Assembly: GCA_944391075.1 (NCBI GenBank)
Contig: CALXSG010000011.1
Coordinates: 1-43,572, forward strand
Reading direction: 5' to 3'
Length of the DNA stretch: 43,572 bases
DNA from: an uncultured Rickettsiales bacterium
GTDB lineage: Bacteria > Pseudomonadota > Alphaproteobacteria > Rickettsiales > UBA1997
The position numbers and the translations under genes are program-made. Under the pieces are notes generated by a model. The model was not told where the DNA came from. It did not search any database and was given only the letters and a program-made list of their open reading frames with translations. Numbering within the stretch: the first letter of the stretch is position 1; each line of letters begins with the position of its first letter. Shown here in pieces: positions 25,642-39,767 of the stretch.

Positions 25642-25854
25642 TAATATAAAAATTATTATTTTATTATAATCAATATTTTATGGAAGTATAATTTTTTATT
25701 ACCTATATTTTATTTATATAAAGTTTTAAAATAATCGTATGATTGTTATGGTGTGGAGGCGTGATGTGTAGATGATGCCTTTCGTAATGATAATTAAGTG
25801 TCTCAGTATCCCACCATACCGAGATTGCCACAGGCCTTTGGCCTTCGCAATGAC
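25519..25854. repeat. 336-bp direct repeat, left copy
   Basis: Matches 33604-33939 with a single mismatch in the final palindrome (CCTTTGG here, CCTTCGG there) and no gaps; offset 8085 bp. Patchier similarity to the right copy continues to about 26160. Confidence 0.9.
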
Positions 25855-26667: not shown

Positions 26668-27048
26668 TGGACTATAACAAACTAACACAAAAACAAAAAA
26701 GGAAAAAAATTCTTACTATTATGTAAAGGCTTGATTTTGATGTCGTGTAAGGACTCTTATTTCCTTTTTATGGTATTAGGTTTTCTAACATGATATCTAA
26801 GGTTTATAAAAGGTTAAGTTGAGTATTTTAAAATATTGTAAATAAAATCATAGTGTGATGGTGAAGTTGAGATTTGATAGTATTAGGTGCTGTATAAGAT
26901 ACTCAACACCACGAGAGAAAAATTATTTATTTTATTATAATAAAAATTTTCTGGAAGTATAAGATTTAAATTTTTTGATTTAATATTTTTAATTTAATAT
27001 TATTTTGCAACTTTAAGATTGGTTTAATGCTATATCATATGATCTTTT

Positions 27049-31352: not shown

Positions 31353-32033
31353 ATGGTAAAATTTTCAAAACCCTTAAATCATGAAGATATGAGAATTACT
31401 ACGGATTTTCATGATCCAAAAAGGCCCAGCCATTCTGGAATAGATTTTGGTAATAATTCAGATGGCAAGCCAATTTATGCTGTTGCTAATGGTTATGTTA
31501 TATATTCAAATATAAGTGGTGGTTATGGAAATACTATTGTAATTAAACATAATGATGGCACATCAACACTATATGCCCATATGAAAAATATATCTAATTA
31601 TAAAGTTGGTGATTATGTTAAACAAAATAGTATAATTGGTTATGTTGGTAATACTGGAAATAGTAGGGGTTCTCATTTACATTTTGAAAGAATTGATAAA
31701 GAAGGAACCGAATCAATAGAAAAGTATTCAGGTAATGGCAAACTTGGTTTATTTCCTAAACAAAATAGAATAAACCCACATACAATAATTGACAATAAAA
31801 CCGGCTACTTTATATGGAGAAGTGAAAAAGATAATAATGTATGTAAAGAATGTACTAGTAGAGATGGAAAAATATTTGAATATGGCAAAGATATAGAACC
31901 ACCTTTACACCATAATTGTAGATGTTATATTGAAGATATAGATAAGTCATCATATGATTATAATTATATATCTACATCAAAGCATTTTGACAAAGCATTA
32001 ATTGAATTAAAACAAATACTAAATAATAATTAA
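31353..32033 (+). CDS. M23 (LytM-type) peptidoglycan endopeptidase with Cys/His C-terminal tail
   Basis: A 226-residue wall hydrolase with no signal peptide. Residues ~5-140 are an M23 metallopeptidase domain: zinc ligands H27 and D31 in HSGIDFG, H76 in LYAHM, and H110 in SHLHFE (with H108). Residues ~148-226 are a separate tail: W155, D160, C164 and C167 in VCKECTSRDG, then PPLHHNCRC with H186, H187, C189 and C191. This WxxxxD-CxxC-HxxCRC pattern resembles the C-terminal motif of phage Mu F/SPP1 gp7-type head proteins and some toxins. The tail is nearly identical in DNA to that of the gene at 32977. Paired with the secreted protein 46 bp upstream; effector-like by context. Confidence 0.85.
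   Translation: MVKFSKPLNHEDMRITTDFHDPKRPSHSGIDFGNNSDGKPIYAVANGYVIYSNISGGYGNTIVIKHNDGTSTLYAHMKNISNYKVGDYVKQNSIIGYVGNTGNSRGSHLHFERIDKEGTESIEKYSGNGKLGLFPKQNRINPHTIIDNKTGYFIWRSEKDNNVCKECTSRDGKIFEYGKDIEPPLHHNCRCYIEDIDKSSYDYNYISTSKHFDKALIELKQILNNN
31791..32033. repeat. Cassette tail repeat (Cys/His domain), copy 1
   Basis: About 240 bp coding for the shared tail, highly similar to 33481-33726. This copy keeps CRC (TGT AGA TGT); the other copy and the remnant at 25519 have CRY (TGT AGA TAT). Confidence 0.85.
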
Positions 32034-32976: not shown

Positions 32977-33726
32977 ATGAAGAATTACGAACAATTTCTT
33001 AATGATTTAGGAAATAGAGAATCTGGTGGTAATTATAAAATCATAAATTCATTAGGTTATTTAGGTAAATATCAATTTGGTAAATTGGCTTTAATTGATA
33101 TAGGTTATTATGGAAAAAATGGTTGGACGGGTAAGGATGGTATATATAGTAAAGATGATTTTTTAAATAACCCAAATATACAAGAAAAAGCTATAAGGGA
33201 ATATCAAAAAAAGATCTGGTTATATATTAAAAATAGTAAATTAGATAAATATATTGGTAAAGAAATTAATGGTACAAAAATTACAACTTCAAGTTTATTA
33301 GCAGGCTATCATTTAAAAGGTATAGGAGATAGCGCTAAAACAATTGAAAAGACTGGCAATAATGCCAGAGCTGGACTAAAAGCTTATTTAGAATCAAATG
33401 GCAAAATAGATGGTTCTGATGGTTATAAAACTAAAATATCAGAATATATAAAATTATTTAGTAATTATATAACTCCATTTGACAACAAAACTGGCTACTT
33501 TATATGGCGAAGTGAAAAAGATAATAATGTATGTAAAGAATGTACTAGTAGAGATGGAAAAATATTTGAATATGGCAAAGATATAGAACCACCTTTACAC
33601 CATAATTGTAGATATTATATTGAAGATATAATTAAGTTATTATATGATTATAATTATATATCTGCATCAAAACATTTTGAAAAAGCATTAATTGAATTAA
33701 AACAAATATTAGATGATAATAAGTAA
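32977..33726 (+). CDS. Lysozyme/transglycosylase-like protein with Cys/His C-terminal tail
   Basis: A 249-residue protein with no signal peptide. Residues ~1-165 look like a lysozyme-fold lytic transglycosylase: MKNYEQFLNDLGNRESGGNY with candidate catalytic E15 in RESGG, then LGYLGKYQFGKLAL (the G-x-YQF step typical of the fold), and a helical remainder. Residues ~172-249 are the same tail as in the M23 protein: W178, C186, C189, H208, H209, C211. The last Cys of the motif is Tyr (CRY, Y213). The enzymatic class is moderately sure. The final 123 bp and the following 200 bp are duplicated at 25519. Effector-like by pairing with the secreted protein upstream. Confidence 0.8.
   Translation: MKNYEQFLNDLGNRESGGNYKIINSLGYLGKYQFGKLALIDIGYYGKNGWTGKDGIYSKDDFLNNPNIQEKAIREYQKKIWLYIKNSKLDKYIGKEINGTKITTSSLLAGYHLKGIGDSAKTIEKTGNNARAGLKAYLESNGKIDGSDGYKTKISEYIKLFSNYITPFDNKTGYFIWRSEKDNNVCKECTSRDGKIFEYGKDIEPPLHHNCRYYIEDIIKLLYDYNYISASKHFEKALIELKQILDDNK
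33481..33726. repeat. Cassette tail repeat (Cys/His domain), copy 2
   Basis: Counterpart of 31791-32033, offset 1690 bp. Its final 123 bp are also found at 25519-25641. Confidence 0.85.
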
Positions 33727-33939
33727 TAATATAAAAATTATTATTTTATTATAATCAATATTTTATGGAAGTATAATTTTTTATTACCTATATTTTATTT
33801 ATATAAAGTTTTAAAATAATCGTATGATTGTTATGGTGTGGAGGCGTGATGTGTAGATGATGCCTTTCGTAATGATAATTAAGTGTCTCAGTATCCCACC
33901 ATACCGAGATTGCCACAGGCCTTCGGCCTTCGCAATGAC
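33604..33939. repeat. 336-bp direct repeat, right copy
   Basis: Covers the last 41 codons of the lysozyme-like gene and 213 bp behind it, ending in a palindrome. One mismatch to 25519-25854. Confidence 0.9.
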
Positions 33940-38436: not shown

Positions 38437-38462
38437 TTTATACTTCCATATTTTTATTAATC

Positions 38463-38512
38463 TTTTACAAGTAGTTTAAACCATTTCGGTTATTATTAAT
38501 AAACTTGTAAAA
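38463..38512. promoter_or_regulatory. Inverted repeat just upstream of the capsid gene
   Basis: TTTTACAAGT (38463-38472) and ACTTGTAAAA (38503-38512) form a perfect 10-bp inverted repeat with 30 bp between, which itself contains AACC/GGTT. The right arm ends 3 bases before the ATG. It could be an operator or an RNA structure that hides the start. Confidence 0.55.
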
Positions 38513-38515
38513 TCT

Positions 38516-39715
38516 ATGAATTTGACAGAAATTAGTGAAAAAATTGATGAAATTGGTAATGCTTGGGAACATTTTAAAAGTGTTAACGATGAAAAATTGA
38601 GACAAATAGAGCAAAAAGGTTCTGCTGATTGTATGGTTATGGAAGAATTAAATAAAATAAATAATTCTTTAAATGAACAAAAACAGCAATTGGATCAATT
38701 GAGAATTAGTGCTTCTAGACCATCTTTTGAAGGTAAAAATATGGACTTTCAAGAGAATTTAGAACATAAAAAAGCTTTAAATAATTATTTGAAAAAAGGT
38801 ATTGATGCACCATTAGCTAATATAGAAACAAAAGCTGATTTAACAACTGCAACAGATTCTAGTTCTGCTTATGGTGGTTATTTACTTACACCAAATATGC
38901 AAAGAATTATTACTGGTGAATTAAATGATAATTGTTTTATGAGACAAATATGTTCTGTACAAACAATTTCATCTTCTGCATTAGAAGTTATTGATGATAC
39001 AAGTTTTGCAACTAGTTGGATTGCTGAAACTGGTACCGTTAATGACTCTGATTCTACTGTTTTAAATAAAATTACAGTAAAAGCACATGAATTGGTAGCA
39101 CAACCAAAAGTTTCTCAAAAATTACTTGATGATGCATCAATTAATATTGAAGAATGGCTTGCATATCAATTAGCTAATCAATTTATGCAAAAAGAAGAAG
39201 AGGCATTTTTGAAAGGTACAGGTGATACTAATAATCAACCAACAGGTATAACTAACTACACAAGTGATATTGAAATAATTGAATCAAGTTCAAGTGTTGA
39301 TGGCGGAATTGAAGCAGAAGACATAGTTGATTTATATTATTCTTTGAAAGAACAATATGTTGGAAATGCAAGTTTTGTAATGCCACGAACTGCTGTTTCT
39401 GCAATTAGAATGTTAAAAGATCCTACAAGTGGAGCATATTTATGGCAACCAGCTTTATTGGGTGGTAAAGAAGATACTTTAATGGGTTGTCCTGTTTATC
39501 AAAGTTCTAATATGCCGGCATTAGGAGCTGGTAGTTTATCGGTAATATTTGGTGATTTTAAATTTTATCAAATAGTTGATAGAAATGATATAAGAGTTTT
39601 GAGAGATCCATATACTGCTAAACCATATGTAAGATTCTACACAACAAAAAGAGTTGGTGGTGATGTAATTAGAAAAGAAGCATTTAAAATGTTAAAATGT
39701 GGAGCAACAGCTTAA
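38516..39715 (+). CDS. HK97-fold major capsid protein (isolated)
   Basis: A 399-residue phage-type major capsid protein. Residues ~1-100 form a coiled-coil delta/scaffold-like region (Gln/Glu/Leu-rich). The rest has the HK97 gp5 pattern: SSSAYGGYLLTP, the N-arm and spine, AYQLANQFMQKEEEAFLKGT, NQPTGITNY, FVMPRTAVSAIRMLKD, GCPVYQSSNMP, VIFGDFKFYQIVDRNDIRVL and the C-terminal YVRFYTTKRVGGDV. Length fits the gene transfer agent/siphovirus family. No portal, protease, terminase or tail gene flanks it; it is closed by its own terminator. That suits either a scattered GTA gene or a prophage relic with an intact frame. Confidence 0.92.
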   Translation: MNLTEISEKIDEIGNAWEHFKSVNDEKLRQIEQKGSADCMVMEELNKINNSLNEQKQQLDQLRISASRPSFEGKNMDFQENLEHKKALNNYLKKGIDAPLANIETKADLTTATDSSSAYGGYLLTPNMQRIITGELNDNCFMRQICSVQTISSSALEVIDDTSFATSWIAETGTVNDSDSTVLNKITVKAHELVAQPKVSQKLLDDASINIEEWLAYQLANQFMQKEEEAFLKGTGDTNNQPTGITNYTSDIEIIESSSSVDGGIEAEDIVDLYYSLKEQYVGNASFVMPRTAVSAIRMLKDPTSGAYLWQPALLGGKEDTLMGCPVYQSSNMPALGAGSLSVIFGDFKFYQIVDRNDIRVLRDPYTAKPYVRFYTTKRVGGDVIRKEAFKMLKCGATA

Positions 39716-39734
39716 TTATTTTTATTAATAATTA

Positions 39735-39767
39735 AAAAATAGTACTCATATTATGGGTACTATTTTT
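39735..39767 (+). terminator. Intrinsic terminator after the capsid gene
   Basis: AATAGTAC / GTACTATT stem, extended by two further pairs, followed by TTT. Confidence 0.8.

Follow-up and report, generated by a model that had tools for sequence, protein, structure and literature searches.

How does an intact major capsid gene come to stand alone in the genome of a Rickettsiales bacterium? The window (the whole stretch of DNA that was analysed, 43,572 nucleotides) corresponds to contig C11 in a draft genome of 1.16 Mb, here G000, and its ORF list contains at 38516–39715, on the forward strand, an intact frame of 399 amino acids. This frame matches PF05065 (256 bits, cut-off 24.2), for which it is the only match genome-wide in G000, as well as TIGR01554 major_cap_HK97 (324 bits, cut-off 27.5) and PHROG 10, confirming the HK97 family major capsid gene that had been recognised by a sequence-only reading of this stretch. 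Profiles, PDB matches and fold place it in the RcGTA g5 type. Its best PDB sequence match is RcGTA Rcc01687 (E 2.2e-62), followed by 9gyi (8e-33), and in a search with the predicted fold (mean pLDDT 71, alignment of 18 rows) RcGTA capsid chains occupy ranks 1–5 (E 6e-21 to 2e-18), followed by the capsid of a phage-inducible island, with encapsulins from rank 29 onward at about 3e-8. The sequence-only reading had offered dispersed GTA genes, a domesticated compartment or a prophage scar as explanations. Our best reading extends the first of these, in that a GTA appears to have been turned from an operon into a regulon: the gene probably encodes an RcGTA-type capsid and belonged to a head-tail cluster that has been broken into single genes with one common, unusual promoter.

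The gene has its own terminator, as had been claimed, in the form of an intrinsic terminator-like hairpin at 39735–39767 on the forward strand (one found against 0.3 expected from shuffles). Among relatives, a similar hairpin lies 3′ of the capsid gene in locus L003 and beside it in L005, and no terminator-like hairpin was found at the capsid gene in L004. The neighbours differ from genome to genome, with 1 shared pair among 44 flanking frames in 10 genomes. The further claim that no other virion gene lies within the window stands in so far as no GTA head-tail gene is found beside the capsid gene, but it does not hold for phage-related sequence in general, as proteins with weakly matching Phage_Mu_F/SPP1 gp7-like tails are encoded at 31353–32033 and 32977–33726.

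A profile search of the genome located the missing partners, each elsewhere: portal (C24:346–1359), prohead protease (C1:71559–71993), large terminase (C19:12084–12797), the distal tail protein g12/DUF2460 (C1:59926–60504) and the baseplate megatron g15/GTA_TIM (C2:37209–37979, inside a 1201-aa gene); a DUF2793 fibre-like gene lies on contig C7. NCBIfam names g15 a 'baseplate multidomain protein megatron' (976 bits, cut-off 800) and g12 a 'phage distal tail protein, Rcc01695 family'. The portal, capsid, g12 and g15 proteins have as their best PDB matches the chains of RcGTA of Rhodobacter capsulatus (Rcc01684, Rcc01687, Rcc01695 and the g15 protein), and are by this measure closer to RcGTA than to phages. 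The protease had no match in the PDB, and both it and the terminase belong to the right families for an RcGTA-type set. One genome thus holds the core head-tail genes, namely terminase, portal, protease, capsid, g12 and g15, which lends good support to the proposal that the capsid gene belongs to a GTA dispersed over an alphaproteobacterial genome.

A contiguous head-tail cluster is usual for RcGTA-type GTAs and is the criterion of cluster-based surveys, without being part of their definition. No such cluster is present in G000, where the six core genes are spread over 5 contigs and the sole pair on one contig is 11.6 kb apart. Across 13 GTA-bearing members of the family there are just three same-contig gene pairs, 1.3 to 25 kb apart; these genomes are drafts of 35–230 contigs, so that such distances can be given on one contig only and are lower bounds. 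Elsewhere in the order, other families have some of these genes side by side, with portal, protease and capsid inside 4 kb in G028, G031, G040 and G043, which indicates that the scattering belongs to the family of G000 or arose near it. The G000 gene appears to be the capsid of a domesticated virus particle with scattered genes. A second portal gene in one relative (G002:C40:4618–5625, locus L088), perhaps of a prophage, lacks the upstream element described below.

The scattered genes are retained or lost together to a considerable extent. Among 25 family genomes, 8 have all six core genes, 11 have none and 6 have a partial set, where G002:C157 and G021 are counted as terminase-positive on assumed orthology. 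One of the partial sets, that of G014 (L017, L085), has broken capsid, portal and g15 genes, as expected when a gene set decays together, and another is that of G021, a genome 76% complete. In G009 the protease gene (L087) is split into two frames. Within the genus, dN/dS (NG86, with dS near or above 1 and saturated-dS pairs excluded) is 0.09–0.19 for the capsid gene and 0.04–0.29 for the other five genes, and the distance matrices of the six genes are congruent (r 0.71–0.96 over 15 gene pairs, permutation p 0.0005–0.0015). This is the pattern of vertical inheritance under purifying selection. The sequence-only reading had held that dN/dS near 1 and a lack of relatives would mark a mere remnant; dN/dS proved low and relatives are present.

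What the sequence-only reading did not see, and what is the new and surprising part, is a promoter-like element common to the scattered GTA genes. Alignment of 10 capsid upstreams of the family reveals a single conserved block, TTTATACTTCC or close variants, which is found in 10/10 of them and lies in the window at 38437–38447 on the forward strand. The same block is found at about 57–64 nt upstream of portal, protease, g15 and some terminase genes, and all 11 g12 upstreams contain the element or a degenerate form of it. Its consensus is TTTRTACTTCC-N18-TATAAT, mostly 55–64 nt 5′ of the start codon; the capsid element of G000 sits farther from its start codon, at 75 nt. With the 18-nt spacing, the −10 place of the capsid gene falls at 38466–38471 (forward strand), where TACAAG is a poor match to TATAAT. 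Over the sites as a whole, a TATAAT-like hexamer occurs at offset 25 (the 18-nt spacer) in 21 of 50, compared with 1–13 at 57 other offsets, and a hexamer at such a fixed offset is, judged by sequence, promoter architecture with an unusual −35. The stretch singled out in the sequence-only reading begins (38437) exactly at TTTATACTTCC, which went unremarked there.

The association with GTA genes was quantified with a matrix of 14 positions, trained on the 10 capsid sites alone, and a mark of 10 bits. The test set comprised 55 upstreams of other GTA genes (portal 12, protease 13, g15 9, terminase 10 and g12 11). At least 10 bits were reached by 40 of these 55 and by 7 of 175 control ORFs of the same loci (rank test p 4e-25, which is only nominal as the rows are related). 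Among the seven control matches, two belong to DUF2793 fibre genes; many of the control loci had been picked for holding the motif, a bias that works against the result. The 15 upstreams under 10 bits include 6 of the 10 terminases, that of G000 among them; most genes of the G007/G014/G024 group miss the mark, and the G011 portal was scored as a miss though the element is present, because the first start codon of its frame lies too far upstream. The second portal of G002:C40 and G002:C157 were excluded from the test, as were the g15 fragments of G011 and G014 and, in G014, also the broken capsid and portal genes; the truncated G001 capsid gene has no upstream sequence. For G004 the terminase used was that on C104, which is 76% identical to that of G000, and a higher-scoring PF03237 match on C77 was set aside.

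GTA genes in other families of the order contributed 16 upstreams, none of which reaches 10 bits (all are at or below 8.5), so that the element looks like a local invention. Genome-wide, GTA-bearing relatives contain it in excess (98 occurrences against 52 for the reversed pattern) and GTA-free relatives do not (13 against 39), a difference with a Fisher p of 7e-7, or 7e-5 without G000 and G011; G021 was placed in neither group, and G004 and G009 show no excess when taken singly. Sharing of one promoter by genes that lie apart suggests that they are still activated jointly. The open-access literature, a scope outside which most subscription papers fall, yielded no report of a promoter common to dispersed GTA genes.

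The element also extends beyond GTA genes. The pattern TRTACTYCC has 45 matches in G000, against 25 for its reverse, and 22 are intergenic. Seven of these precede the portal, capsid, g12, g15 and DUF2793 genes, a 68-aa ORF and a 113-aa ORF, with the first T of the pattern 56–60 nt from the start at six and 77 nt at the capsid gene. The 113-aa protein (C1:88729) is predicted as a four-helix protein (single-sequence prediction, mean pLDDT 77), and a fold search with it gave no convincing match (best E 0.9). The remaining 15 intergenic sites do not precede a GTA gene or a small uncharacterised ORF at the usual distance; among them are sites with lepA, rmuC and an ATPase gene (names read from the translations) 93–125 nt downstream, so that the element may belong to a wider programme and is not purely GTA-specific. 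It is best described as a predicted promoter class that includes the GTA genes. As a possible common target of the other sites, tRNA genes were considered and dropped, as only 4 of the 22 loci scanned, the window aside, contained a tRNA gene, and these showed no common arrangement; an Rfam scan of 8 sources returned rRNA and tRNA only.

Relatives supply further members of this class, although of 60 stretches around sites many have the site inside a long ORF and look like chance. A conserved 126–128-aa protein is found behind the element in G001, G003 and G004 (L180, L195, L197) at about 96–99 nt, with partial homologues near sites in G010 and G018 (L204, L212); it has no Pfam or PHROG match and is a candidate GTA part or regulator. 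A DUF2335 membrane protein follows the element in G001, and a tail-terminator-like protein (PHROG 176) in G011 (L172); the G002 homologue of the latter (L022:16436–16816) has a near match, TTTTTGTACTGCC, upstream. G011 offers textbook examples of the promoter, several of them before very short ORFs with strong ribosome sites, and in that genome host genes such as dnaB also lie behind this promoter type. The G011 mini-ORFs (L160, L167, L168, L171, L173, L174, L175, L177, L178 and L179) have 2 to about 12 codons, for example ATG ACT TAA, and some have a terminator-like hairpin after them; part of the copies form one repeat family, and others are dissimilar in sequence.

GafA/GafZ-type DUF6456 activators are known from Rhodobacterales and Caulobacter and are not part of the general definition of a GTA. 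A search for DUF6456, which PMC9638019 gives as the domain used to annotate GafA homologues, gave no match in G000 and matches in 2 of 41 genomes in all, and a GafA-like activator was accordingly dropped as a candidate for G000. A dedicated sigma factor was dropped likewise, as PF04545 picks out two proteins with sigma-70 region 4, and no third, in G000; most GTA-bearing relatives likewise have two.

These results bear on two other accounts of how the capsid gene is controlled. The GTA could be dispersed and conserved and TACTTCC-N18-TATAAT nonetheless be an ordinary strong or condition-specific promoter class of the lineage rather than GTA control, with GTA genes as some of its users, an account that we regard as a real if lesser possibility. 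It would accommodate the 15 intergenic sites of G000 that lie away from GTA genes, the many G011 promoters before mini-ORFs or host genes, and the negative outcome of the searches for a dedicated sigma and a DUF6456 activator in G000, but it sits poorly with the lack of excess in GTA-free members of the same family and with an element far commoner before GTA genes than before other ORFs of the same loci. The sequence-only reading looked for control elsewhere, in a perfect 10-bp inverted repeat ending 3 bases before the ATG, which it considered a good place for repression. The repeat exists, with its arms at 38463–38472 (TTTTACAAGT) and 38503–38512 (ACTTGTAAAA) separated by 30 nt, and among 1000 dinucleotide shuffles of the leader (79 nt), a perfect repeat with arms of 10 bp or more and a loop of 3–40 appears in 19; 24 comparable repeats, by the same limits, occur in the window. 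It was found at one place in the G000 genome, is absent from the other 9 capsid leaders of the family and was not seen in the inspected upstreams of other GTA genes, where the common element is found instead. A single occurrence and absence from nine other leaders indicate that it is probably not the regulator, and it was set aside as a common control site. That it should be a repressor site or RNA switch specific to the G000 capsid gene is improbable, even though it is perfect, well placed and seldom matched in the shuffles, and though capsid leaders are longer than other GTA leaders and several form local hairpins that differ in sequence. Its left arm also covers the −10 place given by the 18-nt spacing, so that the mRNA would probably lack that arm. 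The repeat is probably incidental.

Two further accounts concern the nature of the gene rather than its control. A remnant of a decayed prophage would be consistent with the lack of a phage cluster around the capsid gene in the window, yet the gene is intact, under purifying selection and co-inherited with five other GTA genes, with whose presence its own covaries, and neither a contiguous phage genome nor a decaying fragment is found. Relatives of the capsid occur in 345 annotated phage records, all below 60% identity, with identities of at most 36% among the 30 of these 345 matches listed, and two scans of viral contigs gave no relative. A prophage scar is therefore very unlikely, and this account is refuted in the main. 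Encapsulins are stand-alone shells without portal, terminase or tail genes. A domesticated compartment making encapsulin-like use of the HK97 fold could explain a single capsid gene at the locus, and the fold is indeed held in common with encapsulins, but these are much more distant than the RcGTA capsids in the fold search, and the portal, protease, terminase and tail genes (g12, g15) are retained in the same genomes. This account can be given hardly any weight.

For a GTA turned into a regulon, the following mechanism can be proposed. TTTRTACTTCC would replace the −35 hexamer, with an 18-nt spacer and a TATAAT-like −10, and at capsid genes, which have a longer leader, the element lies farther from the start. 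A putative activator contacting TACTTCC may replace the −35 contact and recruit polymerase with RpoD, the housekeeping sigma; the scattered genes would then be induced together through their common promoter, and their products would assemble a DNA-packaging head and a tail as in RcGTA. In its fullest form the proposal is that a virus-derived particle passed from late-operon control to a host regulon whose units stand alone and are joined only by a newly evolved promoter class, read by the housekeeping RNA polymerase with a putative activator, that scattering locks its domestication and that small transcripts and a few host genes are co-controlled; taken as a whole this is tentative, and we would put it somewhat short of an even chance. 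No GTA-sized packaged fragment could carry the genes of the particle together, so that scattering would lock domestication, and self-packaging of the set as a unit is implausible. If so, the particle would move any gene and could no longer leave as a virus, and the small transcripts and few host genes could be the rest of the induced programme. The arrangement bears on how a virus becomes irreversibly domesticated.

Reduced genomes of Rickettsiales/Holosporaceae symbionts reportedly keep a GTA capsid and portal under purifying selection (George et al. 2022), with tail parts said to be missing; G000 differs in having g12, g15 and a fibre-like gene. The head-tail cluster of RcGTA comprises 17 genes, with a further seven distributed over four loci (PMC6821227); in G000 each of the six core genes stands by itself, and no protein with DUF6456 (GafA) turned up. 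The nearest arrangement is that of Orientia tsutsugamushi, for which the accessible portion of PMC10732058 places terminase, GTA_TIM, portal, DUF2163, capsid and protease genes in several places, so that in both a small GTA set is kept at several places of a Rickettsiales genome. That portion mentions no common promoter, which the family of G000 has; to the set it describes, G000 adds g12 and a fibre-like gene, and genes standing singly are the rule throughout the family. In control, the closest parallel is CcGTA of Caulobacter crescentus, where, in the sections available, GafY/GafZ act as one activator on about 20 separate promoters (PMC11150451, PMC9632790) and GafY, acting through RpoD, serves sigma-70 promoters whose −35 is degenerate (PMC11150451), which resembles the use of RpoD plus an activator at promoters with an unusual −35 that we propose. 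On the same sources, CcGTA differs in having one main cluster, whereas the G000 genes are scattered, and in that GafY binds far upstream with IHF, whereas the conserved block of G000 is at the −35 place; the GafZ/GafA-type DUF6456 protein of the CcGTA system was not found in G000.

A cluster-based survey, as far as its available text goes, reports a GTA in 0 of 70 Rickettsiales genomes (PMC6821227), and most of one is present in G000 as single genes. The common promoter is a handle by which remaining parts can be found from sequence alone, and it led to g12, the DUF2793 fibre gene and several uncharacterised genes. Such a promoter should persist only as long as joint expression of the genes is required, and so is also a handle on whether host-bound Rickettsiales still make use of their GTAs.

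Further intergenic TATACTTCC sites occur in the window at 25682–25690, 26953–26961 and 33767–33775 (minus strand), two of which duplicate each other, and elsewhere in G000 at C5:59001, 59259 and 59649 and at C2:75221 and 75450; most of these extra sites are followed at about 18 nt by a TATAAT-like box and have no ORF closer than 150 nt. In the two proteins at 31353–32033 and 32977–33726, the Phage_Mu_F/SPP1 gp7-like tails, which match weakly, under curated cut-offs, are joined to an M23 peptidase or lysozyme-like domain; they are not GTA head-tail genes. The tail is repeated, the end of a similar gene copy lies before 25680, and this make-up resembles that of MuF-type polymorphic toxins. Both ends of the contig (118–2067 and 42115–43542) encode long proteins of near-identical internal repeats.
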